Shown: piece after piece, positions 8,312 to 60,050 of the stretch
How positions within the stretch are numbered: the first letter of the stretch is position 1
Layout: every line of letters starts with the position of its first letter
Notes under the pieces: generated by a model
The model's input: the letters and a program-made list of their open reading frames with translations, nothing else
Databases searched by the model: none
What the model was told of the DNA's origin: nothing
Made by a program: the position numbers and the translations under genes
Source: Microglena sp. YARC
Taxonomy: Eukaryota > Chlorophyta > Chlorophyceae > Chlamydomonadales > Chlamydomonadaceae
NCBI GenBank assembly: GCA_022414725.1
Contig: CM039463.1
Coordinates: forward strand, 57,451,909 to 57,515,908
Reading direction: 5' to 3'
Length of the DNA stretch: 64,000 nucleotides

Positions 8312-8407
8312 GTCAGAGGTGTTTGCTCCTCTCCCAGTGGTGAAGATTTGGATATGGACAAAGATGCCAAGTTGAAGGATGTGCTTCGTCGTTGTCATGT
8401 GGCCCAG
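8312..8407 (+). CDS. Gene B, exon ending HVAQ
   Basis: The exon follows TTCTTCTTTCAG and runs in phase 0 for 32 codons to CCCAG|GTGAGG. The peptide includes GEDLDMDKDAKLKDVLRRCH. The family is not recognised. The call is supported by a pyrimidine-rich acceptor, a good donor, and five downstream copies of its 3' end. Its phase fits the next supported exon at 10724. Upstream exons, if any, were not found. Confidence 0.5.
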
Positions 8408-8710
8408 GTGAGGAGAATGCTGATGTGGACAAGGCTGCCCAGTTTAATGATGTGCTTTGTGGTAATCATGTGGCCCTGGTGAGGAAAGTGCTGATGTGGA
8501 CAAAGATGCTCAGTTCAAAGATGTGCTTCGTGGTTGTCATGTGGCCCAGGTGAGGAGAATGCTGATGTGGACAAAGGCTCCCTGTTGAAAGATGTGTTTC
8601 GTGGTTGTCATGTGGCCCAGGTGAGGAAAGTGCTAATGTGGGCAAAGCTGCCCAGTTCAAAGATGTGCTTTGTGGTTGTCATGTGGCCCAGATGAGGAGA
8701 AAGCTGATGA
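8408..8710 (+). repeat. 71-bp array of gene B exon-end/donor copies
   Basis: GTGAGG/ATGAGG marks recur at 8408, 8479, 8550, 8621 and 8692, exactly 71 bp apart. Each unit repeats the last part of the exon at 8312 (GACAAAGATGCTCAGTTCAA to GGCCCAG) followed by the donor. Units alternate between GTGAGGAGAAT and GTGAGGAAAGT types, giving a 142-bp higher-order period. The 71-bp period shifts frame each time. Confidence 0.85.
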
Positions 8711-9129
8711 ATAGTATGAGTAGCCTGGCAGGCCTTACATGCCACAAAACATATTACATGCCAGCCTGGCCACATGCCATAAACATATTACATGCCCACA
8801 TGGTCACACGCAAGCCTGACAACACGCCTCAAACATATATTACATGCCTCGTTTTCCACTTTTTAAATGGTTTTGAGGCCTACGACCAAATCGGAGACAA
8901 GTCATAGTGTGCGCCTCCCCACATACTTTTTGAACACCCCCCGACACGCCACACACAAAATACAAAATGTTTCTCAGCCTTACTTGTTGGTGTCAGTTAG
9001 CGTTCTCAAACCAAGTACCCCTCTTGATACTGCTGGCTGCAGCTACGGGCGCACATTTCTATGCCATAAAAGATACCACAAATGCACACACAGTATACAA
9101 ACCTATTTTTTGTGTGGTATCTTTTACCA
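8711..9129. other. Intron spacer with a 13-bp inverted repeat
   Basis: AAAAGATACCACA at 9068-9080 is mirrored by TGTGGTATCTTTT at 9113-9125 (loop 32 nt). Short imperfect repeats with ACATATTACATGCC lie at 8745-8850. Confidence 0.5.
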
Positions 9130-9590
9130 AGCACCCCTAACTGTGCTATATGTTGCAGCTAGCTGTGCAGGTTGCAGCTATCCCACCTAACCAAGCACCC
9201 CTAACTGTGCAGGTTGCAGCTATCCCACCTAACCAAGCACCCCTAACTGTGCAGGTTGCAGCTATCCCACCTAACCAAGCACCCCTAACTGTGCTATATG
9301 TTGCAGCTAGCTGTGCAGGTTGCAGCTATCCCACCTAACCAAGCACCCCTAACTGTGCAGGTTGCAGCTATCCCACCTAACCAAGCACCCCTAACTGTGC
9401 TATATGTTGCAGCTAGCTGTGCAGGTTGCAGCTATCCCACCTAACCAAGCACCCCTAACTGTGCAGGTTGCAGCTATCCCACCTAACCAAGCACCCCTAA
9501 CTGTGCAGGTTGCAGCTATCCCACCTAACCAAGCACCCCTAACTGTGCAGGTTGCAGCTATCCCACCTAACCAAGCACCCAACCCTCCCC
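9130..9590 (+). repeat. 42-bp array with acceptor-like CAG|GTTGCAGC
   Basis: The unit contains GTGCAGGTTGCAGCTATCCC then ACCTAACCAAGCACCCCTAACT. Some units carry an extra GCTATATGTTGCAGCTAGCT. The CAG|GTTGCAGCT motif equals the acceptor and first bases of the exon at 10724. Confidence 0.85.
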
Positions 9591-10380
9591 CCCCAAACCC
9601 ATCAAACTCACCTAACCAAGCACCCCTCTCTGTGATACAGGTTGCAGCTGTCTGTGTAGCTTGCAGCTAGCTGTGCAGGTTGCAGATATCCCACCTAACC
9701 AAGCCCCCCTCTCTGTGATACAGGTTGCAGCTGTCTGTGTAGCTTGCAGCTAGCTGTGCAGGTTGCAGCTATCCCACCTAACCAAGCCCCCCTCTCTGTG
9801 ATACAGGTTGCAGCTGTCTGTGTAGCTTGCAGCTAGCTGTGCAGGTTGCAGATATCCCACCTAACCAAGCCCCCCTCTCTGTGATACAGGTTGCAGCTGT
9901 CTGTGTAGCTTGCAGCTAGCTGTGCAGGTTGCAGATATCCCACCTAACCAAGCCCCCCTCTCTGTGATACAGGTTGCAGCTGTCTGTGTAGCTTGCTAGC
10001 TGTGCAGGTTGCAGATATCCCACCTAACCAAGCCCCCCTCTCTGTGATACAGGTTGTAGCTGTCTGTGTAGCTTGCAGCTAGCTGTGCAGGTTGCAGATA
10101 TCCCACCTAACCAAGCCCCCCTCTCTGTGATACAGGTTGCAGCTGTCTGTGTAGCTTGCAGCTAGCTGTGCAGGGGGAAGCTATCCCACCTAACCAAGCA
10201 CCCACCCCCCCAAACCGAATACATCAAACCCACCAAACCATGCACTCCTCACTGTGCTACAGGTTGCAGCTACCTGCTATGTATCTATAATCTGTGCAGG
10301 GTGAAGCTATCCCACCTAACCAAGCACCCAGCCCTCCCCCCCCAAACCCATCAAACCCACCAAACCATTCACCCCTCACT
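9591..10380 (+). repeat. About 83-bp array, acceptor-type
   Basis: Seven or so copies of CTCTCTGTGATACAG|GTTGCAGCTG followed by GTAGCTTGCAGCTAGC. GTGATACAG|GTTGCAGCT resembles the functional GTGCTGCAG|GTTGCAGCT before 10724. Two longer degenerate units finish the array at 10180-10380. Confidence 0.85.
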
Positions 10381-10389
10381 GTGCTGCAG

Positions 10390-10500
10390 GTTGCAGCTCT
10401 GGGCTTCTTTGAGGGCCAGCAGCTTACGAGCAGAGCGAGAGGCAGTAAACGTGTGGACATTGAGAACTTCAAGGATGCTAGCTGCTATCTATCTGTTATC
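10390..10500 (+). pseudogene. First partial copy of the gene B exon
   Basis: It follows GTGCTGCAG, reads VAALGFFEGQQLTSRARG and KRVDIENFKDAS, then diverges into intron sequence. It lacks the second half and the donor of the full exon at 10724. Confidence 0.6.
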
Positions 10501-10552
10501 TGTGCAGGTGGCAGCTATTTCACCCAAACCAACACCCCTCACTTTGCTATAG

Positions 10553-10665
10553 GTTGCAGCTATGGGCTTCTTTGAAGGCCAGCAGCTTACGAGCAGAGCA
10601 AGGGGCAGTAAACGTGTGGACATTGAGTACTTCAAGGATGCTAGCTGCTATCTATCTGTTATCTG
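10553..10665 (+). pseudogene. Second partial copy of the gene B exon
   Basis: It follows TTTGCTATAG, reads VAAMGFFEGQQLTSRARG and KRVDIEYFKDAS, then diverges at the same point as the first copy. The two copies and the full exon are spaced 163-171 bp. Confidence 0.6.
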
Positions 10666-10723
10666 TGCAGGAAGCAGGTGTTGGGTTATCTCACCTAACC
10701 CAACACCCCTCACTGTGCTGCAG

Positions 10724-10882
10724 GTTGCAGCTATGGGCTTCTTTGAGGGCCAGCAGCTTACGAGCAGAGCGAGAGGCAGTAAACGTGTGGACATCGAGTA
10801 CTTCAAGGATGCTGAAGCTGACAGGCTGAAGACTGTGGAATCGTTAATGCCAAAGCATCGCTCTAGACCTGCTCTGCTGCAG
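10724..10882 (+). CDS. Gene B, exon VAAMGFFEG to RPALLQ
   Basis: Bounded by GTGCTGCAG and CTGCTGCAG|GTATGT, this 159-bp exon is open in phase 0 for 53 codons. It contains GFFEGQQLTSRARGSKRVD, then FKDAEADRLKTVESLMPKH, and ends RSRPALLQ. It is mixed charge with no membrane segment. I do not recognise the family. It is the only complete copy among three; partial copies precede it, and copies of its last 40 bp plus donor follow for kilobases. That asymmetry marks it as the functional exon. Confidence 0.65.
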
Positions 10883-11778
10883 GTATGTTGCTGTGTTGGT
10901 ATTACATACAGTATTGGGTGTGATTAGAATTAGTGGTTTTTGATGGTGTGATTTTTGATGGTGTGATGTTGAATAAATGAATAAATAATTAATAAAAAAA
11001 TAAAAAAATAAATACATAATGCGATTTAACTTGTTGATGCCAAAAGCATCGCTCTAGACCTGCCCTGCTGCAGGTATGTTGCTGTGTTGGTATTTTAGAC
11101 AAATAAATAAAGAGTATGCCTTATTACCCGGTGTGCGGTTGAGAAGTTGAGTATTTCTGCTAACGATAAACAGGCTCAAGTATGCAAAATTGTTGATGCC
11201 AAAGCAACGCATAAATTATAAATAAATGGATTCATAGTGTGATTTGACTTGTTGATGCCAAAGCATCGATCTAGACCTGCACTGCTACAGGTATGTCGCT
11301 GTGTTGGTATTTTGTTAAGTATTTGGTTTGATTCTGATATGTGGTTTTTGATCGAGGTATTTTTGATGGCGTGATTTGTTGTGCGAGCAGGTATGTTGCT
11401 GTGTTGGTATTTTAGACAAATAGGTAAAGAGTATGCCTTATTACCAGGTGTGGGGTTGAGAAGTTGAGTAGTTGTGCTAAGAATAAACAGGCTCAAGTAT
11501 GATTTTTTTTCCACATCCCCATCCTACCCACCTTTGTATGTACAGTACTGACAGCAAAATTTGCCTAATGCCTTATTACCAGGTGTGGGGTTGAGAAGTT
11601 GAGTACTTGTGCTAAGAATAAACAGGCTCAAGTATGATTTTTTTTGATGCCAAAGCAACGCATACAGTATAGATAAATGGATTCATAGTGTGATTTGACT
11701 TGTTGATGCCAAAGCATTATTACCAGGTGTGGGGTTGAGAAGTTGAGTACTTGTGCTGTCGATAAACAGGCTCAAGTA

Positions 11779-12438
11779 CCGTACTGACAGCAAAATTTAA
11801 CGCTTTATTTCACGGGAGCAACCGTGAAATCGAGGCGTATACTTTATTATGCGACAAAAAAACCGTGAAATCGAGTTTCAGGGCGATATTAGGGTTACAA
11901 TGAGCAATACATGAACACTGTTTGCTCTTGTTTATGAGATGCCTTCGTTGCAGGTCCTAGAACTCAAATTAACTGGGCAGCTAGCTGAGCAATACATGAA
12001 CACTGTGTGCTCTTGTTTATGAGATGCCTTAGTTGCAGGTCCTAGAACTCAAATTAACTGAGCAGGAAATTAAGTGATTAAATGAGTTGATGCAGAGTAC
12101 TACCCTACTTGCAGACCCTATAACCATGTACCCTGATACAACGATACATGGTCTACGGTAACAGTATGAACACTACTACCTATACCTCACTCATGAGTAC
12201 CGGTATACTATGTTGTCACAAGTCTATATTGTGATGTTTAGAACAGGCAACGAATCAGTGTAACATGTTCAAGTTGAAACATTTAAATGAAGTTTATTTA
12301 AATTTGAACCGTGAAATGTGTAACGTCAAATTATATCCCTCTGGAAAACAAACGTGAATTTAAATCGTGAAATTAGAATTAACCCCCTCAAAACGAACGT
12401 GAAATCTTTCGAAGCGTTAATTTTTGCTGTCAGTATGG
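11779..12438. mobile_element. Mariner-like MITE with TA duplication
   Basis: A 660-bp insert flanked by TA (11777-11778 and 12439-12440). Its ends are inverted copies: CCGTACTGACAGCAAAATTT on the left and CCATACTGACAGCAAAAATT read inward from the right, both continuing to ACGCTT and TTTCACG. CGTGAAAT subterminal motifs occur at about 11824, 11863, 12309 and 12393. There is no transposase frame, so it is non-autonomous. An internal 87-bp direct repeat with TACATGAACACTGT lies at 11905-12062. Confidence 0.65.
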
Positions 12439-12444
12439 TATGTT

Positions 12445-13052
12445 TCTTACAGTCCAGGGGGTAGTCAATTAGGCCAGAGAGACTCCCCCTCCCCCCCCCC
12501 CCCCCCCCCCCCCCCCCTCCCCCCTGGCAGACAACAAAGGTACTGTCCCTGCCCCAATGCCTGCTATGGACGAGATCCCTGCTGAAGGTTCTTTCCACAT
12601 CCCATCCTACCCACCTTTGTCTTTTTGTTTATTACAGTCCAGAGGGTAGTCAATTAGGCCAGAGAGACTCCCCCCCCCCCCCCCCTCCCCTCCCAGAGGG
12701 GCAGACAGCTAAGGTACTGTCCCTGTCCCAATGCCTGCCATGGACGAAATCCTTGCTGAAGGTTTGTTTCACATCCCCATCCTACCCACCTTCGTTATTT
12801 TAGTACAGTCCAGGGGGTAGCCAATTAGGATAGATAACCTCCCCCCCCCCCCCCTTCCCCCTTTCCCTCCCCCTGCCACATGTCATTGGTACCGCCCCCT
12901 TTGTTTTTTTAGTACAGTCCAGGCAGTGAGGGAGTAGCCAATTGGGCTAATAATAAAGGGGCTGCGGCAGGTTTGTTTCACATCCCCATCCTACCCACCT
13001 TTGTTTGTTTGTTTGTTTAGTACAGTCCAGGGGGTAGCCAATTAGGCTAGAG

Positions 13053-13086
<34 letters not shown>

Positions 13087-13140
13087 TCCCAGATGGCATC
13101 AGTACGGTCCCGGTCGGTACCGTCCCGGCAGACGACAAAG
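12445..13140 (+). repeat. Array with GTACAGTCCAGGGGGTAG and poly-C
   Basis: About five units begin near 12450, 12632, 12804, 12911 and 13018. Each has TACAGTCCAGG and TAGYCAATTAGG, a C-run of up to 30, then a segment with GGCAGACAACAAAGGTA and TTCACATCCCCATCCTACC. The start is related to the dispersed element at 28214 and 43966. Confidence 0.8.
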
Positions 13141-14221
13141 GTAATTAATTAATTTTTGCTGTCAGTACGGTATGCAGAATTGTTGATGCCAAAGCAACGC
13201 ATAAATTATAAATAAATGAATTCATAGTGTGATTTGACTTGATACCAAAGCATCACCCCAGACCTGCCCTGCTGCAGGTGTGTTGCTGTGTTGGTAATCA
13301 AGTGCTCCTTGTTAGTTGTGCTCACCATAAACAGGCTCAAGTATGTGAAATTGTTGATGCCAAAGCAACGCATACATTATAAATAAATGGATTCATAGTG
13401 TGATTTGACTTGTTGATGCCAAAGCATTGCCCTAGACCTGTCCTGCTGCAGGTGTGTTGCTGTCTTGGTAATCAAGTGCTCCTTGTTAGTTGTGCTCTCG
13501 ATAAACAGGCTCAAGTACGTGAAATTGTTGATGCCAAAGCATCGCTCTATGTCGGCCTTTTAGATAAATACATTAATACATGAATGTATAGTATGCTTTA
13601 TTATGAGGCGCAAGGTTGAGGGGACAGCTCTAGACCTGCCCTGGGGCAAAGCACGGATAGGGGGGGGGGGGGGGTGCTGTCATCTTCCTTAGGCTACTTG
13701 TTAGCTATGCGAACGATAAACAGGCTCAAGTATGTGAATTTTATAATGCCAAAGCATCGCTCTAAGTCGGCCTTTTAGATAAATACATCAATACATGAAT
13801 GTGAAGTATGCCTTATTATGAGGCGCGAGGTTGAGGGGGACAGCTCTTGACCTGCCCTGGGGCCAACCACGGTTTTGGGAGAGGGGGGGGGGGCTGTCAG
13901 CTCCCTTTGGCCTTTAAGTGCTACTTGTTTGTTGTGCTCACCATGAACTGGCTAAAGTATGCAAAATCGTTGATGCCCAAGCATCGCTCTAGACTTGCAC
14001 TGCTGCAGGTATGTTGCTGTGTTGGTATTGTATGCAGTTTTTTGTGTGGTTCTGATGTTTTTGATAGAGGTTTATGATAGAGATATTTTTGATCAACGTA
14101 TTTTTGATGGTATGATTTTGAATAGAGTAATAAATAGTTCATGTGATTTGACTTGTTGATGCCCAAGCATCGCTCTAGACCTGCTCTGCTGCAGGTTTGT
14201 GTTGCTGTGTTGGCCTTTCAG

Positions 14222-14777
14222 GCAAATAAATAAGTGCACAAATAAATAAGTACACAAATAAATAAGTACACAAATAAATAAGTACACAAAATAAATAAGT
14301 ACACAAATAAATAAGTACACAAATAAATAAGTACACAAATAAATAAGTACACAAATAAATAAGTACAAAAATAGATAAGTACACAAATAAATAAGTACAC
14401 AAATAGATAAGTACACAAATAAATAAGTACACAAATAGATAAGTACACAAATAAATAAGTACACAAATAGATAAGTACACAAATAGATAAGTACACAAAT
14501 AAATAAGTACACAAATAAATAAGTACACAAATAAATAAGTACACAAATAGATAAGTACACAAATAAATAAGTACACAAAAATGTATGTACACAAATAAAT
14601 AAGTACACAAATAAATAAGTACACAAATAGATAAGTACACAAATAAATAAGTACACAAATAGATAAGTACACAAATAAATAAGTACACAAATAAATAAGT
14701 ACACAAATAGATAAGTACACAAATAAATACGTACACAAATAAATAAGTACACAAATAAATAAGTACACAAATAAATA
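14222..14777 (+). repeat. 16-bp array AAGTACACAAATAAAT
   Basis: About 35 tandem copies, some with GATA for AATA. Long minus-strand open frames here (Tyr-Leu-Phe/Ile-Cys repeats) are repeat translations. Confidence 0.95.
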
Positions 14778-15320
14778 GTATGCCTCATTATGAGGCGCGA
14801 GGTTGAGGGGGACAGCTCCAGACCTGCTCTGCTGCAGGTGTGTGTCTCCGTGTTGGCCTTTTAGACAAATAAATAAATACGCAAATAAATGGTATGCCTT
14901 AAAATGAGGCGTGAGGTTGAGGGGGACAGCTCTACACCTACTCTGCTGCATGTATGTTGCTGCGTTGGCCTTATATATATACATATATAAATAGTATGCC
15001 TTATTACGAGGCGCGAGGTTGAGGGGGACAGCTCTAGAAGTGCCCCGCTGCACATGTGCCACTGTGTTGCCCTTTTAGACAAACAAATAAATACGTAGTA
15101 TGCCTTGTTACGAGGCGTGAGGTTGATGGGGACAGTTCTAGAAGTGCCCCGCTGCACGTGTGCCACTTTGTTGCCCTTTTAGACAAACAAATATATATGT
15201 GGTATGCCTTGTTACTAGGCGTGAGGTTGAGGGGGACAGCTCTAGAAGTGCCTTGCTGCACGTGTGCCACTTTGTTGGCCTTTTAGATAAATAAATAAAT
15301 ATGTAGTATGTCGTAAGTGT
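14778..15320 (+). repeat. About 105-bp array joining donor copies to the GCCTTATTACGAGGC element
   Basis: Five units anchored near 14781, 14896, 14997, 15101 and 15206. Each carries GCCTTRTTACGAGGCGYGAG, then GTTGAGGGGGACAGCTCTAG, then a degraded copy of the RPALLQ exon end (TGCTGCAYGTGTG). Similar cores occur at 860, 5450, 13605 and 13810. Confidence 0.8.
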
Positions 15321-15340
15321 GTTGCTGTGTTGATATTATA

Positions 15341-17566
15341 TATGACTAACCTGTTTAATCTCATCTGGAAGACCTCTTACCCTAGCCAATGGGCTGCAGC
15401 TGCCTTGGTACCCGTACCCAAATCCAAAGGCAGTGTTTATGACAAGGACAACTATCGAGGTCTTGCGGTGAGCAACTCCATAGGAAAGATCTTCTCCCTT
15501 TGCATGCTACGTAGACTAGATGATTGGTCAGAAGAATTCAACCTCAGAGCCGCTGGCCAATATGGATTTAGAAGTGGTAGGGGTACTGCGGATGCATCAT
15601 TCATTCTTAACCATATTGTAGATAAATATAGAGAGAAGAAAAAACCACTCTTTGTGGCTTTTGTCGATTTCAAGAAGGCTTATGATTGGGTCAACAGAGA
15701 CTTGCTATGGGATTGCTTAGCAAGGCTAGGAGTAAAAGACCCCTATCTTAGTATTCTGAAGTCCATGTATAATCATGTCATTTTCAAAGTTTGCCTACAT
15801 GGGGACATTGGATCCTCCTTTCCATCCCTTGTAGGAGTTAAACAAGGAGACCCCCTATCCCCACTCCTATTCGGTCTGTTCATTGATAGAATTGAATCAT
15901 TCCTCCAATCCAAGCTCCCAAATGTAGGGGCTGAGCTTAGGGGAAAGATTCTGCAATTGTTACTTTATGCTGATGACCTAGCTATAATGGCAGAATCCCC
16001 GGCAGATATGCAAGCGATGCTTGACTGCCTGAGAAATTTCTGCGAGGCTACTAAGATGGTTGTGAATATAAAGAAAACTGAGATTGTCGTTTTCAACAAG
16101 CAATTCTGTGATGAGGCCCGTATGGATCCTGATTACAAATTTGTCTATGATGGAGCACAGCTTTCTACAAAGTTATCTTTTATCTACCTGGGATCCCTCT
16201 TTGTGGATGGTTACTCAAGCAATCGTGCAAAAGCTGCTTTTTCTAGGATGCTCGCTAAGGCCCAAAAGGCTCACCACATGCTCCGTAGGCGATGCCATAC
16301 TATGGAGATATACAATATTGATATTCTCACCCACCTGTTTGATTCTCTTGTACAACCTATCCTGAATTTTGGATGTGAGGTGTGGGCTCCTTCTATTCTG
16401 AACAACACACTTATCTCAAATGACCATGCTTGTGAGAAATGGCATAGAGGTATACTTAAACAAATGTTGGGTGTTTGCCAATCTACTACATCTAATATTA
16501 TCATGGAAGAGCTGGGTAGAACCCCGTTGTGTTTTGCTTGGCTTATACAAGCTTTGCGCTTCTGGAACAAGACCATAGATAAAGAACCTGAGGATCTCAT
16601 TAGAATGGCTCTTGAGGAATCTTTTGATTCCAACACTGGCTGGGTCCATGACTTACGTTGTGCTCTCCACAAGCTAGGATCCAGTAAAAACCTCAACATT
16701 TTGGAGGCTGTCGAGGTATTATGTCTGAAGTCTTTGAGTCATGGAGGTTTAAGTACCCAAGTGACACCAATGCAGTCAGAGACATCCCTGATGAGAGAAG
16801 GGTTGGCTTTAAACGCCTCCGATACCAGAAATGGTTCGCAGCCAACAGCAATGATGAGAATGGCTTGATTCCCTTTACATCTGCCTTACATAAGCAGGAT
16901 CAGATTCGTTCTATAGCACAGTTTAGAATGGGTTCCCATTGGCTGAACACAGAAAGAATGAGGGTGGTGGATAGAGCAAACATCCCTCGTTCAATGAGAC
17001 ACTGTCAAATGTGTGGGTTCCAAAAACCTGAGGATGAAATGCATATGTTTGAGTGCCCTTTTTATAATGATATCCGCCTCCGCTACCAGAAGCTGTTTAC
17101 AGATATTTATAGGCATGTCAATGAGGATACCGACCGTATGGAATGTGGAATTCTGCGATTCCACATTCAGAACCTTTATGAATGGAAATGGCACTAAGAC
17201 TTTCTGGAGCAACCTAGCCGACTATCTTTCTACTTGTAGAAGAGCAAGACAGGAAGCCCTGGACTGCTTAGTGGCACCGTAATTTATTATCCCTTTTTTT
17301 TTTCTTTTCTTCTTGTGACTTCTCATTTGTTAGCTTCTTACCTCCGCCACTGTAAGTGGTTGAGATCTGGGTCCGGCTCTAGGGGATTTAATACCTACGC
17401 CACCAAAATGGTGGTTGGGAGCTTGGTTTGTTTGTCCTCGACACACCCCTGATGTAATGGGGTTTTTTGCTTTGTGGGTGCTTTTTATTTTTGTTTAAAG
17501 CACAGAGTCTCATACACCCTCGCGGTGTCAAGTAGACTTTAACATGTAATGTAATGTAATGTAAAT
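15341..17566 (+). mobile_element. 5'-truncated LINE inserted in a gene B intron
   Basis: The 5' junction breaks a donor-array unit (GTGTTGATATTATA), and the 3' junction resumes the same unit (ATACAGTATTGGGTGTG, compare 17766). The element therefore spans about 15341-17566. It carries RT and zinc-knuckle coding remnants and a 3' region with CTCGCGGTGTCAAGTAGACT. It ends in a short (TGTAA)n tail. Any target duplication is at most about 3 bp. A second copy of the 3' end is at 45719. Confidence 0.85.
15342..17282 (+). pseudogene. LINE reverse transcriptase, frameshifted
   Basis: The RT domain starts within PVPKSKGSVYDKDNYRGLAV. Motif A is FVAFVDFKKAYDWVN, with the catalytic Asp in VDF. Motif B is GVKQGDPLSPLLFG. 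Motif C is YADD within LLLYADDLAIM. A C-terminal zinc knuckle reads CQMCGFQKPEDEMHMFECP (C-x2-C...H-x4-C), typical of non-LTR retrotransposons. The frame is intact from 15342 to about 16710, continues one frame over to about 17190 (ending at 17197 if unshifted), and probably shifts again to give LADYLSTCRRARQEALDC before TAA at 17280. The endonuclease and N-terminus are missing, so this copy is dead. Confidence 0.85.
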
Positions 17567-20205: not shown

Positions 20206-20416
20206 ATACCACACCAGGGTACTTCCATTGACCAAATTGGCCAGCGCTTAAGCGAACTTGAAAAAATCAAAAGTGCGCTTTGTAGTGCAAAAAGCGCAAA
20301 AATTGCTTGCTTCGCCATAGGGGGTTGCAAAAAACTGCGCGAAACGCGCAGTGGGGCTCAAAAAGGCAGCGCGCCAGCGCGCAAAAGCGCGCGCTTGGAA
20401 GTACCCTATACCACAC
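20206..20416 (-). mobile_element. MITE, AGGGTACTTCCA family, with 9-bp target duplication
   Basis: The insert at 20215-20407 has termini AGGGTACTTCCA and TGGAAGTACCCT and is flanked by ATACCACAC on both sides. The interior is rich in GCGC palindromes (CGAAACGCGCAG, GCGCGCCAGCGCGC). The uninterrupted site is visible in the neighbouring repeat at about 20550 and 20680. Confidence 0.85.
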
Positions 20417-21011: not shown

Positions 21012-21212
21012 TTATACAATTGGTCTAGTGGTACACCAAATCGCTTTAACGACAAAGGGTCGGGGGTTCAATTCCCCTTTCGGTCTCCCTTAGCGTTGCA
21101 GGTCGTTGTTAACCGCGATGGTACCTTGTCCAGTCGAGGTGGTAGACAGTTCTCTGCCCGCGTACGACGGGTTCCCTTAACACCACGCCCCACCAGGCGT
21201 TATCATTACCTT
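21012..21212 (+). mobile_element. tRNA-derived SINE, full-length copy
   Basis: The tRNA-like head has an A box TGGTCTAGTGG (21021-21031) and a B box GGTTCAATTCC (21065-21075). The body contains GTTGCAGGTCGTTGTTAACC and CCCGCGTACGACGGG. The tail is CACGCCCCACCAGGCGTTAT ending CATTACC. Copies with over 80 percent visible identity lie at 49390 and 54905. An internal Pol III promoter is expected. Confidence 0.85.
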
Positions 21213-21639: not shown

Positions 21640-22050
21640 TATGCTGTTATACCTACCTGCATATTTATGTCTGTGCCTTTTTATTGAAGGATTTTCACCA
21701 AGCCCTAGCAGTATTTTCATGAAGCCCTAGCAGTATCTCCTGTTGCCATCATTTGTTTCTTCACAAGCTCCTCTACACTCGTCCTCACACAAGCACAAAC
21801 TGCATGTGGTGGTGTGCAGGAGCCATCCAAGAAGCCTTTGCAGTATCTCCTGTTGCCACAAAATTCTTGTTCTCAATAATGATCAGTTGTATCTGTACTG
21901 CACAACAACACCAACTGCATGTGGTTGTATGCAGAAGCCATCCAAGAAGCCCTAGCAGTATCTCTTGTTGCCATAGAATTGTTGTTCTCAAGAATTGATC
22001 AGTTGTATCTGTTTTGCACAACAACACCAACTGCATGTGGTGGTATGCAG
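21640..22050 (+). repeat. Acceptor-type copies before the exon at 22051
   Basis: ACCAACTGCATGTGGTKGTATGCAG|(G)AGCCATCCAAGAAGCC recurs at about 21785-21845 and 21908-21955, ahead of the functional one at 22025. A shorter form is at 21625. After each copy the sequence passes to CAGTATCTCYTGTTGCCA rather than to exon. Confidence 0.8.
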
Positions 22051-22154
22051 GAGCCATCCAAGAAGCCCTAGCCGAGCACTTCAATGATCAGCTCCGAAAC
22101 CTGCGAGGCAACGAGGAGGATGGCAACGAGGGCTATGAGTATGGAGCTGAGCAA
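22051..22154 (+). CDS. Gene B exon, AIQEALAEHFNDQL
   Basis: After GTATGCAG the 104-nt exon enters in phase 1 (two bases finish a codon), followed by 34 codons ending YGAEQ|GTGAGT. It includes AIQEALAEHFNDQLRNLRGN and an acidic EEDGNEGYEY stretch. No family is recognised. The last exon at 22573 continues in phase 0. Copies of its acceptor lie upstream, and short copies of its donor side (GCTGAGCAAGTGAGTTCATA) lie at 22240 and 22330. Confidence 0.65.
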
Positions 22155-22572: not shown

Positions 22573-22770
22573 GTATCCCCAGACATTCCGGAGGAGGTTC
22601 GGAGTGTGTTGAAGAACCTGCGTGATGCTGACAGGGCCCCCGACGGAGCCCCCCTGCCCCCCAGTATCAGCATCTTGCAGAGAGGAGCAGATGTGGGGTT
22701 GGAGGATGCTGTAGGGGCGGTAGTGAAGACGGGAGTTCAGTTTGCTGTCAGCCTAGTGTCCAAGTCCTAA
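22573..22770 (+). CDS. Gene B terminal exon
   Basis: After ACACAAACAG the exon is open in phase 0 for 65 codons to TAA at 22768-22770. It starts VSPDIPEEVRSVLKNLRDAD, then a Pro-rich RAPDGAPLPPS, and ends VGAVVKTGVQFAVSLVSKS, which is amphipathic or weakly hydrophobic. With the previous exon it gives a continuous acidic-to-helical C-terminus. The function is unknown. Downstream are at least three copies of its second half that also stop after LVS or SKS, so this 3' end has been duplicated into the 3' flank. Confidence 0.65.
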   Translation, partial: VSPDIPEEVRSVLKNLRDADRAPDGAPLPPSISILQRGADVGLEDAVGAVVKTGVQFAVSLVSKS

Positions 22771-23990
22771 CTCTAGTGTCCCAGTCTTATGGGCCTGTGT
22801 GATGCCGACATAGGCCCCGGATGTAGCCCCCCTGCCCCCCAGCCATATGGACCAATGTGATGCTGGCAGAAGCCCCAGACGGAGCCCCCTTGCCCCCCAG
22901 TCCAATGGACCAGTGTGATGCTGGCAGAGGTCTTGGACAGAGCCCCCCTGCCCCCTAGCATCCTGCAGAGGCAAACAGATGTGGGGTTGGAGGATGCTGT
23001 AGGGGCGGTAGTAAAGACGGGAGTTCAGCTTGCTGTCAGCCTAGTGTCCAAGTCCTAACTGTAGTATCCCAGTCCTGTGTATATGTTATTCTGACTGAGG
23101 CCCCGGACGGAGCCCCCCTGCTTCCCAGTCATATGTAGGGGTAGGCTATGTTATATAATATAAGTGAATAAATAATATTATATAATATTATATAATATTA
23201 GACTGACAAGCCATCTCACCAGAATTTTGAATTTATTTGAAAAACCAATATTATTGTGACACTACAATAATATTAGTTTTCAAACACTAATATTAGTTGC
23301 CGTTCCCTAGTCATATGGACCTGTGTGATGCTGACAGAGGCCCCGGACGTAGCCCACCTGCCCCCCAATCCTATGGGCCTGTGTGATGCTTGCAGAGGAC
23401 TCGGACAGAGCCCTTGTGTGCCCGTCATATGGACCTGTGCGGGGATGACAGAGATCTTGGACGGAGCCCTCCTGCCCCCCTGCATCAGCATCTTGCAGAG
23501 GGAAGCGGATGTGGGGTTGGAGGATGCTGTGGGGGCGGTAGTAAAGACTGGGGTGCAGTTTGCTGTCGGCCTTGTGTCCTAACTCTAGTCTCTCAGTCTT
23601 ATGAGCCGAAGTGATGCTGACTGAGGTCCTGACGGAGCCCACCTGCCCCCTCGTTCTATGGGCCTAAGTGGTGCTGGTAGAGGGCCCAGACGGAGCCTCC
23701 CTACCCCCCAGTAGTATGGGCCTATGTAATGCTGACAAGGGCCCCGGACGGAGCCCCCCTGCCCCACAGCATCAGCATCCTGCGGATGGGAGCGGATGGG
23801 GGGTTGAAGGATGCTGTTGGTCATGACGGAGCCCCTCTGCCCCCCAGTCCTATGGACCTGTGTGATGCTGGCAGAGGTCTTGGACGAAGCCCCCCTGCCC
23901 CACAGCATCTTGCAGAGGGAAGCGGATGTGGAGTTGGAGGATGCTGTGGGGGCGGAAGTGAAGACTTCGGTTTGCCGATCATGATAATAC
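22771..23990 (+). repeat. Tandem copies of the gene B terminal exon in its 3' flank
   Basis: GATGCTGACAGAGGCCCCGG followed by ACGGAGCCCCCCTGCCCCCCA occurs about ten times. The segment GATGTGGGGTTGGAGGATGC to CAGTTTGCTGTC is repeated at 22965-23060 (ending AAGTCCTAA), 23480-23585 (ending GTGTCCTAA), 23765-23825 and 23900-23970, with increasing damage. An AT-rich patch lies at 23150-23290. Confidence 0.8.
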
Positions 23991-24671
23991 CGCAATCTGT
24001 TATCTTCCGGCTCACAGTAGATTCATATGTGGGACATTCTCGCTAATCATTTGAAGGTGGATTTTATGACAGAAAGGTGTATGGCAGCGACTTTGAAACC
24101 GTTACCATCTCGTTGGCCTTGTGTCAAAGCCATCGGTTGGCCCCTACCTATGCATTGCCACTTGTACGTTTTGGCCGTCCCATAAAACTGTCGTGTCGTG
24201 TTGCGTCCCGGGAAGTGTCGTATTTGTTTTCGAGGTGTCTGAAAAACCAACATTCACCTGTCAAACTACACCCACTATAGCCAAAAACGAGCTCTAAATG
24301 AACCTGAACTTTTGCTGCCTAACTGGCACATGGAACCTAAGTTGGGGTTTAGTAAGGATCTACGCTGTCATTTTCGGCCGTATTGTATAGCACCCTCATG
24401 AAGAATCATGCGCGCGTTCCAGCACCCCTGAACTCCCACCATGCACTCACGGGGGCCGACCACTACGGGGTCTCGGTCACCCTGCTATTTTTAGGAAACG
24501 GCAAAATGATATCTAATGATGCCGGTAGTCTCACTAGGCTAAAGTTTTAATTTAAATACAATATCATATGATGCAAGTTGTATGATATCGTATGATGTCA
24601 TACTCACCTTAGGCCAGGATCATCTGATATGATGATAGCTATTTTTTAAGTAAGGAACCAGTATCTTAATG
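23991..24671. other. Spacer without supported features
   Basis: Only short open frames and a few ATATGATG-like repeats at 24560-24640. Confidence 0.4.
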
Positions 24672-31544: not shown

Positions 31545-31588
<44 letters not shown>

Positions 31589-40285: not shown

Positions 40286-40432
40286 GTTCTTCTATCAGCG
40301 CACATCTCTGGTTCTTTTGGAGAGCCCTCAGACTGGTCCCTCTAACTTGGGGTTGGATCTGTAATAACACTGCGTACTGTGAACCAACATATCCTCCAAC
40401 ATATCCTTCCACTCTTCTCTCACAGTCTCACT

Positions 40433-43400: not shown

Positions 43401-43543
43401 TTGCTTTCATGGCACTAGTATTTCTATGGACTTCTAGGATGTCTCGTTGGGTGTTTGCTATCCCTTTCGTGTGTGACCTGCTGGTCTTGCTAAGTCTTGC
43501 TAAGTCCTGCTTAGTCTTGCTAAGTCTTGCTAAGTCTTGCTAA
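40433..43543 (+). CDS. Large membrane protein with ankyrin-like repeats
   Basis: A single open exon of 1036 residues if it starts at MDCKVRKKY (40433), which follows a possible acceptor TTCTCTCACAG; an in-frame ATG at 40379 would add 18. Hydrophobic segments near 41-56, 80-92, 100-118, 140-156, 163-175 and 187-199 suggest five or six membrane helices. A linker at about 250-310 repeats QQADVPL, followed by a Ser/Thr/Glu/Pro-rich stretch. A soluble region follows with YTTVYLRIPGSDPDELAPDF and VEVNIPSERRTSLLDGFPLA. Near 790-850 are ankyrin-type motifs GSTIMHLAVLTGSCAMVDEM and HGMTPLHLASLVNDGNMATF. The C-terminus is basic/Pro-rich and then hydrophobic (FLPQLAFMALVFLWTSRMS). It ends in a 10-bp DNA repeat that supplies the stop. 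A splice at RKK|GTCTCT is possible. The function is unknown. Confidence 0.75.
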   Translation: MDCKVRKKYSYFAHLRECFFSFADNAKEEHLVRLAIEQRKFVILLLGGALCAASAHKILGSEDTRQNLFGSFLLDPTTPGPIAFLLVALLMGRWRWVEPTVFVAIVLRMVSLVMWMVCDPASIPAVVQRWLGPFSSMHSFIICSFMVSAGNFLFTARLKFALLNAVLNGVAAPGIAHRSPADLSPWPLVVAVVATVLLRLHLELKGRSKFLELYYPTNESTEAGIAAGTKGATDAAARQDVAASGFTEQAKADQQADVPLQQADVPLQQADVLQQADVPLQQADVPLQQADVPLQQADLPLQQAEATDSTTESATEPSTTEATTEATTEPSTTEPSTTESAPESIAPESTTDTVAPSEVPSQHFTTAAPFEEPRDELSDKELQDLINIYNRRSWETEALPTYTTVYLRIPGSDPDELAPDFKTNLKRAFEAANIGYKVHDITIQRGSLLVGVRIGSPKVAGARSTSKSSVQMLKDVNISSWLTWLGLPADMGISVEVNIPSERRTSLLDGFPLAVTVRKSEKGDAIVSFPLRCTELPEGVAIKASLRDHILVCDVIRARVEDVPLGSPTDDQGRITLQVKLPSDALCVSSCWLLTINVQDLGDHIIVGDRSVVLLDEALAVMESELCSMRLLRPKDMPHVLKTHNVEQPFGAEVVYALGCWLQIMYAEHQHAEHQLQDGGHEEPQLEEPVISQQLADMWRVGNRLLMLLVGTGCKDAAKHTMDLLLNSSSLRACVPGSAQSEGLDATPSFHDYISGAENRVGSTIMHLAVLTGSCAMVDEMMRLSDVYKLPCQWDVKDTHGMTPLHLASLVNDGNMATFLLRKKVSAISHAWLCGGGAPGGSPEQFSRRTAKMEAAAGGGRSLQGWSKTSLRSPPHQRHPRLTGLATSGSASIATPAIRPTPASNTQDCRDEHQHQPHTAPPPPRTASEDTSLSPGQLMVAGGPKPSPLMEHLGPGIPSLRSACHETPCVVNRSKHSLVVLMFGRFLPQLAFMALVFLWTSRMSRWVFAIPFVCDLLVLLSLAKSCLVLLSLAKSC

Positions 43544-53163: not shown

Positions 53164-53972
53164 CTTGTAACTCACCCAGACCTCATTTATGCTAAATATC
53201 CCTGAATATTATAGCTGGCCATACAGGGCTGGTCTACATAGGTTCTACCCAAGTGAAATCTGTGCTACTAGTCACCAGGTTACAGAATTGTTACTCACTC
53301 AGACCCCATTCAAAGCCACCTAATTAAATGACCCTAAATATTCTGGCTGGTCAAGTTACAGAATTAAATCCGGCTCAGATCCCATTCAAAATATAAATAA
53401 GAAATAGAATACATCCGAAATATACAACCCTACATATTTTGGCTGGTCATGCAGGGCTGGTGTCCATGAGCTCATCCCTCTTCTTCTTCTCAGATCTATA
53501 CAACTTCTATTGGCATCCGTGCTACTGATCAGGTTACAGAAGTATGTCTGATCTCATTCAAAATAAAAACAAGAATACAAATAAATAATCCTAAATATTC
53601 TGGCTCGTCACGCAGGGCTGGCGTCCATGAGCTCCTCCCTCGGACTGATGGGCCGCATGATGAGCTCGCTGGTTGACACTCATTCAAAATAAAAATAAAA
53701 TACATAATTATAAATCGTATGGCTGGTCACGCAGGGCTGGTGTCCATGAGCTCCTCCCTCGGACTGATGGGCCGCATGATGAGCTCGCTGGTTGACACTC
53801 ATTCAAAATAAAAATAAAATACATAATTATAAATCGTATGGCTGGTCACGCAGGGCTGGTGTCCATGAGCTCCTCCCTCGGACTGATGGGCCGCATGATG
53901 AGCTCGCTGGTTGACACTCATTCAAAATAAAAATAAAACACATAATTATAAATCGTCTGGCTGGTCACGCAG
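53164..53972 (+). repeat. Acceptor-type copies of gene C exon 4, about 117-bp array at its end
   Basis: GTCACGCAG|GGCTGGTGTCCATGAGCTCC then TCCCTCGGACTGATGGGCCG recurs at 53610, 53728 and 53845. Each breaks off after GAGCTCGCTGGTTGA into ATAAATCG-type intron. Earlier copies (53215, 53450) keep only GCAGGGCTGGTGTCC. Confidence 0.9.
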
Positions 53973-54196
53973 GGCTGGTGTCCATGAGCTCCTCCCTCAG
54001 ACTTATGGGCCGCATGATGAGCTCGCTGGTTGAGAACCAAAGTAGCACCACGTTCCAGAAGCTGGCTGAATCTTTCAACGACGGTGCTGCGCTGGCCACT
54101 GCCCTCACTGGCCCTGCCTCCGATGCTTACTTTCTCACGATCCTCGAGACCATCGTGTCCTCTGTCAGGAAGATGGGCGCTGGTGACATCATTGTG
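53973..54196 (+). CDS. Gene C, fourth exon
   Basis: After GTCACGCAG it enters in phase 1 (PGLVSMSSSLRLMGRMMSSL across the join). It continues VENQSSTTFQKLAESFNDGA, ALATALTGPASDAYFLTILE and TIVSSVRKMGAGDIIV, and ends GTG|GTACGT. This is 224 nt and leaves in phase 0. It reads as a helical soluble domain; no family is recognised. Copies of its start lie upstream and copies of its end lie downstream, so it is the only full version. Confidence 0.7.
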
Positions 54197-54880
54197 GTAC
54201 GTTGGCATGAGACAATCTTTTTCTTGTGGTACGTTTCATTGAGAAATCGCGTCCTCTGTCAAAACAATGGGCGCTGGTGATATCGACGTGGTACGTTTTC
54301 TCGATACAACCGTGTCCTCTGACAGGAAGATGGGCGCTGGTGACATCACTGTGGTACGTTGGCATGAGACAATCGTTTTCTTGTGGTACGTTTGCTTAAG
54401 ACAATCCTGTCATTGTGGTACGTTTTCTCAAGACAACCATGTCCTTCGTCAGGATGATGGGCGCTGGTGACATCATTGTGGTACGTTGGCATGAGACAAT
54501 CGTTTTCTTGTGGTACGTTTGCTTAAGACAACCGTGTCCTCTGTCAGGATGATGGGCGCTGGTGACTTCATTGTGGTACGTTGGCATGAGACAATCGTTT
54601 TCTTGTGGTACGTTGGCTTGAGACAATAGTTTTATTGTGGTACGTTGGCTTAAGACAATCCTGTCATTGTGGTACGTAGGGCCGTTGGCTTGAGACAATC
54701 CTTTTCTTGTGGTACGTTTCATTGAGAAATCGCGTCCTCTGTCAAGAAGATGGGCAATGGTGATATCGACGTAGTACGTTTTTTCGGTACGACCGTGTCC
54801 TCTATCAAGAAGTTGGGAGCTGGTGATATCATTGTGGTACGTTCACTGCAAATTTAAAGTGTCTTCGGCACTCTTTTCCA
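54197..54880 (+). repeat. Donor-type copies of gene C exon 4
   Basis: GTGTCCTCTGTCAGGAAGAT then GGGCGCTGGTGACATCATTG TG|GTACGTT recurs about six times (54250, 54315, 54440, 54535, 54730, 54790). Extra copies of TTGTGGTACGTTKGCTTRAG lie between them. Confidence 0.9.
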
Positions 54881-54904
54881 CACCAGCCTCTTACAGTGAT
54901 TTGC

Positions 54905-55098
54905 AATGGTCTAGTGGTAGACCAGATCGCTTAAGAATGAAGAGTCGGGGGTTCGACACCCCCTTCGGTCGCTCTTGGCGTTGCAGGTCGTCGTCAACCG
55001 CGATGGTAGCTTGTCCAGGTGAGGTAGGAGATCGCTCCCCACCCGCGTACGACGGGCTCCCTTAACACCACGCCCCACCAGGCGTTATCATTACCTTT
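54905..55098 (+). mobile_element. tRNA-derived SINE, full-length copy
   Basis: A box TGGTCTAGTGG (54907-54917), B box GGTTCGACACC (54950-54960), body GTTGCAGGTCGTCGTCAACC, tail ACCACGCCCCACCAGGCGTT then ATCATTACC and a T-run. Confidence 0.85.
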
Positions 55099-56340: not shown

Positions 56341-56350
56341 GCACCTACAG

Positions 56351-56390
56351 CATTGGTGTGGTCAACACTGGAGAGGGTGTGGATTACCAT
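56351..56390 (+). CDS. Candidate mini-exon copy with both splice sites (1)
   Basis: Flanked by CACCTACAG and GTGAGT, 40 nt. In one frame it gives IGVVNTGEGVDYH. Only three of seven copies have an AG acceptor; the others have GTAAACG at that place. Confidence 0.4.
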
Positions 56391-56792
56391 GTGAGTGCTG
56401 GTGGTCGTTTTTGACCCAATTGTTTCCCGTTTGTTCTTCGTTTTAAACGTTTTTCGAATTCTCTGGCTGTCATCTGTAAACGCATTGGTGTGGTCAACAC
56501 TGGAGAAGGTGTGGAGTACCATGTGAGTGCTGGTGGTCGTTTTTGACCCAATTGTTGCCCGTTTGTTCTTCGTTTTATACGTTTTTTCGAATTCTCTGGC
56601 TGTCTGCTGTAAACGCATTGGTGTGGTCAACACTGGAGAAGGTGTGGAGTGCCATGTAAGTGCTGGTGGTCGTTGTACCCAAAGTTTTTTCCACTTGTTT
56701 TTCGCCTTTTTTAACGCTTCTGGTGGTCGTCCCCCCTCCTTTTTGTTTTCCTTCTTTCCTTTTTCGAATGCTCTGACTATCTGCACCTACAG

Positions 56793-56832
56793 CATTGGTG
56801 TGGTCAACAATGGGGAGGGTGTGGAGTACCAT
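56793..56832 (+). CDS. Candidate mini-exon copy with both splice sites (2)
   Basis: Flanked by CACCTACAG and GTACGT, 40 nt, IGVVNNGEGVEYH. Confidence 0.35.
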
Positions 56833-56969
56833 GTACGTGCTGGTGGTCGTTGTACCCAAAGTTTTTTCCATTTGTTTTTCGCCTTTTTTAACGTTTCTGG
56901 TGGTCGTCCCCCCCCCATTTTGTTTTCCTTTTTTCCTTTTTCGAATTCTCTGACTATCTGCACCTACAG

Positions 56970-57009
56970 CATTGGTGTGGTCAACACTGGGGAGGGTGTG
57001 GAGTACCAT
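56970..57009 (+). CDS. Candidate mini-exon copy with both splice sites (3)
   Basis: Flanked by CACCTACAG and GTAAGT, 40 nt, IGVVNTGEGVEYH. Three copies together would be 120 nt and keep frame between the phase-0 end of 54196 and the phase-0 start of 59349, with no stop in the joined reading. Confidence 0.35.
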
Positions 57010-57574
57010 GTAAGTGTTGGTGGTCGTTTTTTACCCAAAGTGGTTCCGTTTGTTTTTTGTTTTAAACGTTTTTTCGAATCCTCTGGCTGTCATCTGTAAA
57101 CACGTTGGTGTGGTCAACACTGGAGAAGGTGTGGAGTACCATGTAAGTGCTGGTGGTCGTTGTACCCAAAGTTTTATCCATTTGTTTTTCGCCTTTTTTA
57201 AACGTTTCTGGTCATTGTTTCCCCCCCATTTTGTTTACATTTTTTCCTTTTTTTTGAATTCTCTGACTGTCTGTGGTAAACGCATTGGTGTGGTCAACAC
57301 TGGGGAAGGTGTGTAGTACCATGTAAGTGCTGGTGGTCGTTAGAAAAAGAAAAAAAACGTTTTTTTGTCTTCCGTCTTATCATTTTTCGATTCTCGTGCT
57401 GTCTGCTGTAAAAGCCCGCATGCAATTTCAAGAAGATACAACCCTTTCACTTTTCCTTGAAAGTTACATTTCACTGTTAACTATAATAAAGTCCGCTATT
57501 TTTGTAGGGTTGGTATGGTTAGTAAGTATGCCCCCTTTTAATTTTGGTAACCTGACTTTATTAAAGTGATGTTT

Positions 57575-58140: not shown

Positions 58141-58221
58141 CAACGTTAACTTCCCCAGTGCAAGCGAACCTTCCCGTTTGCTTGCACTGGGGAAAGTTCG
58201 CTTGAACCATCCCCAGCGCAA

Positions 58222-58390
58222 CAGGGTACTTCCATTGACCAAATTGGCCAGCGCTTTAGCGCACTTCGAAAAAAAACTGCGCTGTGTGGTGCAAAAAACG
58301 CAAAAATGCTTGCTGCACCCACAGGGGGTTACAAAAATCTGCGCGAAACGCGCAGTGGCGCCCAAAAAGGCAGCGCACCAGCGCGCGCTT
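58222..58390 (-). mobile_element. MITE, AGGGTACTTCCA family, one end lost
   Basis: It starts CAGGGTACTTCCATTGACC, has GCGCGAAACGCGCAGTGG inside, and stops at CAGCGCGCGCTTG without the GGAAGTACCCT terminus. GAACCATCCCCAG occurs on both sides, so the loss probably came from recombination between flanking repeats. Confidence 0.8.
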
Positions 58391-58555
58391 GAACCATCCC
58401 CAGTGCCAGCTAACGGGGAGGTTCCTTCATCTTCACGCCCCGTTGTAAGGCATAACATTTTTTTCTTATTAGTATGCGGCCAATCAGGTGGAATATTATT
58501 GCACCCTTTAAAAGTTACCCTGCTTGAGGGCAAGGCGTAACATTTTCCATTTTTT

Positions 58556-58595
58556 TAGGGTTTTAGGGTTTAGGGTTTAGGGTTTTTTAGGGTCT
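58556..58595 (+). repeat. Interstitial plant-type telomere tract
   Basis: Three to four imperfect TTTAGGG units. Confidence 0.8.
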
Positions 58596-58729
58596 GATGC
58601 CGCTGCCTCAACTTCACTCCTGGGCAGGGCGTAACAATTTCCATTTTTATTACGCAGCAATTCGGGTGGAATATGATTGCACCCTTTAAGAAAAGTAATG
58701 AGAACACCTGGTGTGGCGTGGTAATTCAC

Positions 58730-59348
58730 CTAAACATAAATTTGCCCGTATGCCCACGTTGCAGCATCTCCAACTGGAGAGATCCGAATAGTTTAAGAGT
58801 ATTTGGTTTTGGTAGATAACTTGATCTTTTCATAGGAAATAAATTCCACCAATAATTGTTAAACTATTAATGGGATATGATTAAATTGTAGACTTTATTA
58901 GCGACAAGCACTGTGTCTGAGCCATGCTGCTTTTGCCCGCAGCCTCATGTTGCAACATCTCCAACTGGATTGAACCAAACAGTTTAAAAGCTTTGATTTT
59001 GGTATACATCTTGCGCTTTTTATAGGAAAGCAAGTCCAATAATTATTTATAAAACACATTCCACCAACAATTCCAGTAATAAACTCCACCTAAAGTTTTG
59101 CCCGCAGCCTCATGTTGCAACATCTCGAAATTCCAAAAATTCCACTAATTTATTCCACCTAAAAATATTTTTGCCCGCAGCCTCACGTTCCTACATCTCC
59201 AACTGGAGTGAACCGAACAGTTTAAAAGTATTTGATTTTGGTACATATCTTGCGCTTTTTATAGGAAAGCAATTCCGATAATTATTTATAAATACATTCC
59301 ACCAGCAATTCCACTAATTTATTCCACCTATAAATATTTTGCCCGCAG
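58730..59348 (+). repeat. Acceptor-type copies of the gene C exon at 59349
   Basis: TTTTGCCCGCAG|CCTCATGTTGCAACATCTCC then AACTGG recurs near 58937, 59098 and 59172, with a decayed form at 58740. Each diverges into AACAGTTTAAAAGTATTTG intron; only the last continues as exon. Confidence 0.88.
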
Positions 59349-59564
59349 CCTCATGTTGCTACATCTCCAACTGGGGAGATCCAAGCTGCACTGGGAGTGG
59401 AGCTGCGTGGAGTTGCCTCAGAGAGAGTAGAGAATAGTCCTTTTTGGTGGGCCCTGCTAAGGCCTCTCCTCTACCCCAATCCCAAATCTGGGCCAGCTAG
59501 CACCTACGAGCAAGTGCTGCCTGCTGCCAACTCTAAATTGTTCTCGGCTAACGTGAACGAGCGG
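59349..59564 (+). CDS. Gene C, last supported exon
   Basis: After TTTTGCCCGCAG it encodes PHVATSPTGEIQAALGVELR, GVASERVENSPFWWALLRPL, LYPNPKSGPASTYEQVLPAA and NSKLFSANVNER in phase 0 for exactly 72 codons, ending GAGCGG|GTAGGT. I do not recognise the family. Acceptor copies lie upstream and donor copies downstream. Belonging to gene C is inferred from strand, order and phase. The gene must continue beyond the window or end in the following repeats. Confidence 0.65.
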
Positions 59565-60050
59565 GTAGGTTGTATAAGTAATAAACATGTATAATTATTA
59601 AGAACCGCCATTTCTGGTGGGCGCTGCCGAGGCCTCTCCTCCACCCCAATCCCAAATCTGGGCCAGCTAGCACCTACCAGCAAGTGCTGCCTGCTGCCAA
59701 CTCTAAACTGTTCTCGGCTAACGTGAATGAGCGGGTAGGTTGTATAAGGAATAAACATGTCTAATTATTAAGAACCGCCATTTCTGGTGGGCGCTGCCGA
59801 GGCCTCTCCTCTACCCCAACCCCAAATCTGGGCCAGCTAGCACCTACAATCAAGTGCTGCCTGCTGCCAACTCTAAACTGTTCTCGGCTAACGTGAACGA
59901 GCGGGAAGGTTGTATAAGAAATATACATATATAATTATTAAGAACCGCCATTTCTGGTGGGCGCTGCCGAGGCCTCTCCTCTACCCCAACCCCAAATCTG
60001 GGCCAGCTAGCACCTACCAGCAAGTGCTGCCTGCTGCCAAACACTGTGCC
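59565..60050 (+). repeat. 170-bp donor-type array of the exon at 59349
   Basis: AGAACCGCCATTTCTGGTGG starts units at 59601, 59771 and 59941. Each repeats about 130 bp of the exon's 3' part (GGCCTCTCCTCTACCCCAA to GTGAAYGAGCGG) plus the donor GTAGGTTGTATAAG or GAAGGTTGTATAAG. The last unit breaks off before the donor. Confidence 0.92.

Follow-up and report, generated by a model that had tools for sequence, protein, structure and literature searches.

How an intron lengthens is the question raised by a 64,000-nucleotide stretch of the Microglena sp. YARC genome (assembly GCA_022414725.1, contig CM039463.1, positions 57,451,909 to 57,515,908 of the forward strand; hereafter the window), in which a first-pass annotation had described introns built from copies of their own splice junctions with a fixed polarity. 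Scans of these junctions and of genes elsewhere in the chromosome-scale assembly (568 Mb) indicate that introns in this alga probably grow by tandem duplication across existing junctions, with splicing predicted to keep the copy adjacent to the exon.

Junctions were scored with an ungapped 30-mer centred on the junction, and a match was counted where at least 22 of the 30 bases were identical within 5 kb on either side. The identical scan on the opposite side of each junction served as the control for copy counts and is the sole chance comparison. Intron-side copies were found at 12 of 14 window junctions and opposite-side copies at none, a result with which a parallel 24-mer scan agreed; most of the 14 junctions had been picked during the first-pass annotation, and 12 of 14 is thus not an unbiased rate. 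At donor junctions the end of the exon and its GT are repeated downstream, and at acceptor junctions the AG and the start of the exon are repeated upstream. No copies were found by the 30-mer scan within 5 kb for the donor near 22154 (scanned at 22152, i.e. 2 bases off) or the acceptor at 22573. The arrays and their exons are listed below; codon scores use a composition learned from CCT exons, with a mark set at 95% of random stop-free stretches.

8312-8407, plus strand: COQ7-like exon, its last bases being the first unit of a donor array; codon score below the 95% mark
8408-8709, plus strand: donor-type array (exon end and GT), 4 copies, 71 bp period
9126-10723, plus strand: acceptor-type array (AG and exon start), 14 copies, one just upstream near 9036
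10724-10882, plus strand: COQ7-like exon with arrays on both sides, PF03232 match jointly with 8312-8407; codon score above the 95% mark
10883-14951, plus strand: donor-type copies of the exon end, 8 at 22/30, widely spaced, the last at about 14951
21640-22050, plus strand: acceptor-type array, 2 copies
22051-22154, plus strand: COQ7-like exon, donor without copies; codon score 0.57
32118-32504, plus strand: acceptor-type array, 5 copies, of the exon starting at 32505
32505-32663, plus strand: exon called from splice sites and flanking arrays only, frame unsure; weak codon score
32664-33125, plus strand: donor-type array, 5 copies, 77 bp period, with a sixth copy at +1080
35281-35514, minus strand: donor-type array of the minus-strand exon ending at 35515, 2 copies, 94 bp period
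53566-53972, plus strand: acceptor-type array, 119 bp period, 3 copies and 4 more up to 1.9 kb upstream
53973-54196, plus strand: exon with arrays on both sides; codon score 0.40
54197-54880, plus strand: donor-type array, 4 copies
56391-57330, plus strand: donor-type array after the exon ending at 56390, 6 copies; missing from the first-pass list
58730-59348, plus strand: acceptor-type array, 3 copies
59349-59564, plus strand: exon with arrays on both sides, open frame; weak codon score
59565-60040, plus strand: donor-type array with about 120 bp of exon end, 2 copies, 170 bp period

Nine of the twelve arrays in the first-pass list were recovered by the 30-mer scan as they had been described, namely the donor arrays at 8408-8710, 10883-14215, 35270-35514, 54197-54880 and 59565-60050 and the acceptor arrays at 9130-10723, 21640-22050, 53610-53972 and 58730-59348. 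The first of the 14 copies assigned to 9130-10723 lies just upstream of that range, 6 of the 8 copies at 10883-14215 and 3 of the 7 at 53610-53972 fall within it, and the 2 copies at 35270-35514 belong to an exon on the minus strand. Two further arrays are real with their labels exchanged: 32111-32501, called donor, holds 5 acceptor-type copies, and 32624-33130, called acceptor, holds donor-type copies of the exon ending at 32663, so that the intron-side rule still holds at both. The remaining one, 30039-32110, listed as an acceptor array, is an intron array without any copy of the 32505 junction; by eye, only a short CACCTACCAG stretch is common.

The exons of the window are less secure than its arrays. 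Joined together, 8312-8407 and 10724-10882 match COQ7 (PF03232, E 6e-5) at 23.1 bits, just under the cut-off of 23.5. Of the eight exons scored for codon composition, those at 10724, 22051, 22573 and 53973 exceed the 95% mark, whereas the minus-strand exon and those at 8312, 32505 and 59349 do not. No homologues of the COQ7-like exons or of the exons at 54-60 kb were found among 5.8 billion proteins, and simple residue patterns gave no match for the missing middle COQ7 exon. Because the exons called in the window vary in reliability, genes with certain exons were used for the main test. Within 22573-24000, pieces of the terminal COQ7-like exon (..DVGLEDAVGAVVKTGVQ..) recur downstream in open frames, which indicates that the 3' end of the gene has been copied too; the EXXH iron motif is seemingly absent from this last exon. 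The long COQ7-like intron also contains a retroelement reverse transcriptase open frame (RVT_1, E 4e-31) at 15291-16865.

The genes chosen encode the chaperonins CCT and Cpn60. A family search gave 64 matches, from which 14 stretches spanning 11 genes were read, and 27 introns were solved by frame, family position and splice-site score. Twenty-four introns from 9 of the 11 genes were kept; three with a score below 11 were left out (C0, E3 and G0), five pairs of adjacent exons could not be solved (A1, A3, B4, E1 and F3), gene K yielded no intron, and exon pairs separated by more than 30 missing family positions were skipped. Intron-side copies were present at 18 of the 48 chaperonin junctions and wrong-side copies at none, and 12 of the 24 introns contain at least one copy of their own junctions. 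A stricter 24-mer count found copies at 8 of 24 donors and 4 of 24 acceptors. With the window included, the tally is 30 of 62 junctions on the intron side against 0 of 62 on the opposite side, which supports the part of the first-pass proposal in which local tandem duplications include exon edges and so produce rows of decoy sites.

The form of the arrays is that expected of units that overrun the edge: at the junction itself 33% of donors and 42% of acceptors are copied, and this share drops with depth into the exon until it reaches 0 at about 105-120 bp. Across the 18 arrays, copies extend 22-106 bp into the exon; the distance to the nearest copy ranges from 45 to 519 bp and is 97-216 bp in 14 of them. 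Arrays of own-junction copies make up 28.8% of the length of the 24 introns. Intron length correlates with the duplicated share (Spearman 0.44, p 0.03, n = 24), a relationship to be read with the greater room that long introns give for copies.

The same rule was examined from coordinates only in CCT, HSP70, tRNA synthetase and kinesin genes, where the candidates scored were 73 of 102 from the HSP70 search and 122 of 325 from the kinesin search. Among these, partial copies at 12 exons fit the rule, 7 being downstream copies with the end of the exon and 5 upstream copies with its start; none were the reverse and 2 were unclear. Counted by pair, 15 of 19 rows were as expected, 2 were unclear and 2 appeared contrary, both of the latter comparing two partial copies of one larger exon and being set aside in the count per exon. 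One of the 12 exons, from CCT gene D, is shared with the chaperonin set. The junction-copy pattern is therefore not special to the window but recurs in four gene families elsewhere.

The most complete case is CCT-alpha intron 3 (gene D, C5:39355997-39357803), in which 6 donor-type copies are followed by 2 acceptor-type copies and 96% of the sequence is duplicated, so that the intron offers 7 donor-type sites (one copy having GC) and 3 acceptor-type sites in near-alike sequences. Its CCT-alpha paralogue, gene F, has no intron at this site but has another one (locus index 3212-4894), absent from gene D, that is 52% duplicated, with 5 acceptor-type copies and 1 donor-type copy. These differences, between two paralogues, are compatible with either gain or loss, and intron 3 of gene D was accordingly not read as a new gain. 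The CCT-alpha paralogues (loci L024/L025 and L028) lie on different chromosomes and have at least one differing intron each, these two introns both carrying junction copies. Two Cpn60 paralogues (L030 and L031) each carry five donor-type copies at the same junction, after ..NKLRGTLK, when scored at 20/30; the periods are about 180 and 150 bp, and GT is kept in all 10 copies. Both of these genes presumably resemble plastid forms. When CCT-alpha was joined at its exon-proximal junctions, the 369-aa product aligned without gaps to chain 3iyg_A, and joined CCT-delta had no gap at its four joins relative to 3iyg_D; 7 of the 8 introns spanned by the two joined proteins contain junction copies. That exon-proximal junctions join into uninterrupted CCT proteins supports the view that the exon-proximal copy would be the one used.

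These observations suggest how growth by tandem duplication might proceed. A genome-wide tandem-duplication process would run over exon edges. Where it duplicates an exon end with its GT and the start of the intron, the first copy would stay attached to the exon and the rest would fall within the intron; where it duplicates the end of the intron with its AG and the start of the exon, the last copy would stay attached. The messenger would be unchanged if the outermost pair of sites were used, making the duplication invisible to selection, whereas a deletion over the same edge would destroy the exon and be removed. With duplications harmless and deletions purged, edges would only gain copies and the intron would grow. 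Partial exon copies would be ignored, probably because each contains only a single member of the site pair that exon definition brings together. The fixed polarity reported in the first-pass annotation stands as an observation; as a property of the mechanism it is not needed, because the geometry of duplication, use of the exon-proximal copy and selection for an unchanged messenger would produce it with no directional mechanism.

The arrays were made on the spot. In a whole-genome DNA search, which passes over simple repeats and very common words, the stretch holding exon 53973-54196 and both its arrays had two matches besides its own position, one of 80% immediately upstream and one of 47 bases on C3, and the stretch holding exon 59349-59564 and both its arrays matched only itself. 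None of 13 array queries from the window matched any of 34 other loci, one having 2 matches elsewhere in the window. A survey of twenty 10-kb stretches spaced evenly along C2, the chromosome of the window, showed 37% of the sequence to be tandem repeat, a share lowered by the 11 kb of N that the survey includes; the duplication process thus appears to be general, with introns as one place where it leaves marks. Two of the 20 survey stretches (L012 and L020) are more than 93% tandem repeat with a period of at least 20.

A dispersed element, introner-like or satellite, inserted at exon edges would leave similar rows, and 5% of the species searched are reported to have introners (PMC9860276). However, the units here contain sequence of the exon beside them and vary between introns, 13 of 13 array queries found no match at the 34 other loci, and two stretches with four arrays are practically unique in 568 Mb as far as the whole-genome search reaches. 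A dispersed element was accordingly rejected and is extremely improbable as the source, in agreement with the first-pass view that the units are not one transposon family. An assembly artefact or wrong exon calls might be suspected from the several window exons that lack homologues and have poor codon scores, but units within one array differ from each other, which a stuttered assembly would not give, and CCT, Cpn60, HSP70, tRNA synthetase and kinesin genes also have exons with this pattern; we regard this explanation as very improbable. A third alternative is that the copies are in use, AG|GT units acting as dual-specific sites, with stepwise removal of the array or alternative transcripts as the outcome. 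Human UBC has dual-specific sites in tandem repeats (PMC10809524), 30 of the 48 CCT/Cpn60 junctions are AG|GT, and the decoy dinucleotides are mostly intact (42 of 52 donor copies still have GT, and 51 of 58 acceptor copies still have AG). Yet AG|GT is no commoner at copy-bearing junctions (copies accompany 11 of the 30 AG|GT junctions and 7 of the 18 remaining ones, p = 1), and it is absent from several array junctions of the window (54196, 56390, 59564, 53972 and 59348). Use of the copies is improbable on this evidence, and AG|GT as a requirement was discarded, as 7 of 18 array-bearing junctions are without it.

On a common measure, 19 of 29 donor copies have GT, compared with 922 of 1367 interior GT sites, and 26 of 31 acceptor copies have AG, compared with 648 of 1023 interior AG sites. 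Decoys are not disabled: donor copies equal interior sites and acceptor copies exceed them. Purging of decoy sites is ruled out by this retention at or above the interior rate. Constraint on the decoys, as read from a minimum of ungapped mismatches at the junction, was also dismissed, the comparison window itself being centred there. With decoys largely intact, splicing would have to ignore them by position or context.

On the first-pass suggestion that duplication begins at exon edges, the measures disagree in size. With low-complexity positions excluded, exon edges in the 24 chaperonin introns are duplicated no more often than the intron interior per present-day position (37.5% at edges, 37.7% in the interior; 95% interval of the difference -0.22 to 0.21). 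Interior positions of long arrays are otherwise counted many times, and weighting by copy number was therefore applied. Per distinct ancestral site the ratio of edge to interior is 1.9 (1.1-2.9), or 1.64 (1.03-2.21) when 17 less certain single-edge junctions are added to give 65, an excess of 1.6- to 1.9-fold. The 17 alone give 0.89 (0.00-1.68) at 22/30, and the 65 give 1.61 (0.80-2.49) at 24/30 and 1.76 (0.92-2.80) at 26/30, both intervals including 1. Near-identical and hence recent copies (28/30) show no clear excess, at 1.25 (0.34-2.18). Because the exonic side of each 30-mer is conserved, old edge copies would remain recognisable for longer. A mild edge preference for duplication is possible.

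Seeding of duplication at exon edges would make the junction a hot spot whose edges are copied above other intron DNA, for example through replication/transcription conflict at the change in composition or through AG/GT microhomology. The ratios per ancestral site, simulations of uniform duplication that yield a ratio below 1, and the unlike periods of the Cpn60 donor arrays at the same junction argue for it, but the lack of an excess per position, the values at higher identity, in recent copies and in the 17 extra junctions, and the longer detectability of old copies argue against, and seeding of this kind seems rather unlikely. Only tentatively do we put forward a splice-junction ratchet, in which edges might be preferred seeds of duplication, introns might be rebuilt from their own junctions and the spliceosome might pick the outermost pair; its end state would be an intron with nearly no other sequence left, as in CCT-alpha intron 3.

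Several points weigh against growth by duplication across existing junctions as proposed here. Simulated uniform duplication gives a ratio below 1 (unweighted runs also fall below the interior) and the data lie above 1; purely uniform duplication may be insufficient. AG is somewhat more frequent in acceptor decoys than at interior control sites (26 of 31 compared with 63%), an excess not expected under pure neutrality. Protein homology in two genes suggests use of the exon-proximal copy, but the joins were chosen partly by family position, so that the fit is not an independent proof, and the exon-definition step is predicted from the presence of one site per unit. Whole-exon duplications, which on this model should be selected against, do not occur in the 18 arrays, but as 0.5 would be expected their absence is uninformative. 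The apparent uniqueness of the arrays is limited by the simple repeats and common words over which DNA searches pass.

Other features of the window were also noted. An open frame of 1065 codons at 40346-43540 has a weak ankyrin-repeat match under the family cut-offs. A short dispersed repeat rich in GCGCAGTGGGGCTCAAAAA is found around 20300, 29800 and 58280, and 20300-20410 also matched one other locus. Stretches resembling tRNA (..GGTCTAGTGGT..GGGGGTTC..) around 21015-21090 and 54900-54975, neither of them called by ARAGORN, are perhaps tRNA-derived short elements.

Several described systems share features with these introns. One is intron gain by tandem duplication, the route of Hellsten 2011 covered in PMC4974935, which creates a new intron, in the classical form out of exonic AGGT. 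As there, the intron sequence here consists of tandem duplicates carrying both splice signals and parts of an exon, splice signals are put in a row and splicing removes the extra sequence; unlike there, existing introns lengthen at their own two junctions, repeatedly and in many genes, and AGGT is not required. The Drosophila cases of intron gain by exon duplication (PMC2891723) also involve tandem duplication with one copy becoming intron, but are single events at new intron positions, whereas the present arrays stand at old junctions. Dual-specific sites in the tandem repeats of human UBC and others (PMC10809524) likewise form rows of similar splice sites that delimit units; in those systems intron length is a multiple of the unit, and UBC units are variably spliced in or out, whereas here units hold one exon edge and AG|GT is not enriched. 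Introners (PMC9860276, PMC11453091) resemble the arrays in bringing a mass change in intron content, but are dispersed related copies, whereas the arrays are local and mutually unrelated: no element common to many introns emerged from the 13 array queries or from the genome search of two stretches, and the unit is one junction with the adjoining exon's sequence rather than an element with its own splice sites inserted into exons.

With the model of border-induced selection on intron length (PMC9748784) the present reading shares the rejection of border-reaching deletions and the keeping of neutral DNA between exons; that model deals with indels in general, and border copies are not described in the part of the source covered. 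Tandem repeats also make introns long in the satellite-containing giant introns of Drosophila (PMC6508621), and long introns and extensive repeats are known from Dunaliella (PMC6941287). The units in Microglena are of the minisatellite type, being head-to-tail, tens to hundreds of bases long and locally made. No description of arrays of an intron's own junctions was found in the titles and abstract openings searched, among which subscription journals are thinly covered.

Intron growth is usually argued from lengths alone. In these genes its steps are legible as oriented copies of exon edges, so that the rate, unit size and start points of growth become measurable gene by gene. The arrays also form a natural experiment on splice-site choice, since the CCT-alpha protein needs the outermost pair among many similar sites; with intact decoys beside the pair that is needed, how splicing ignores decoys becomes directly testable.

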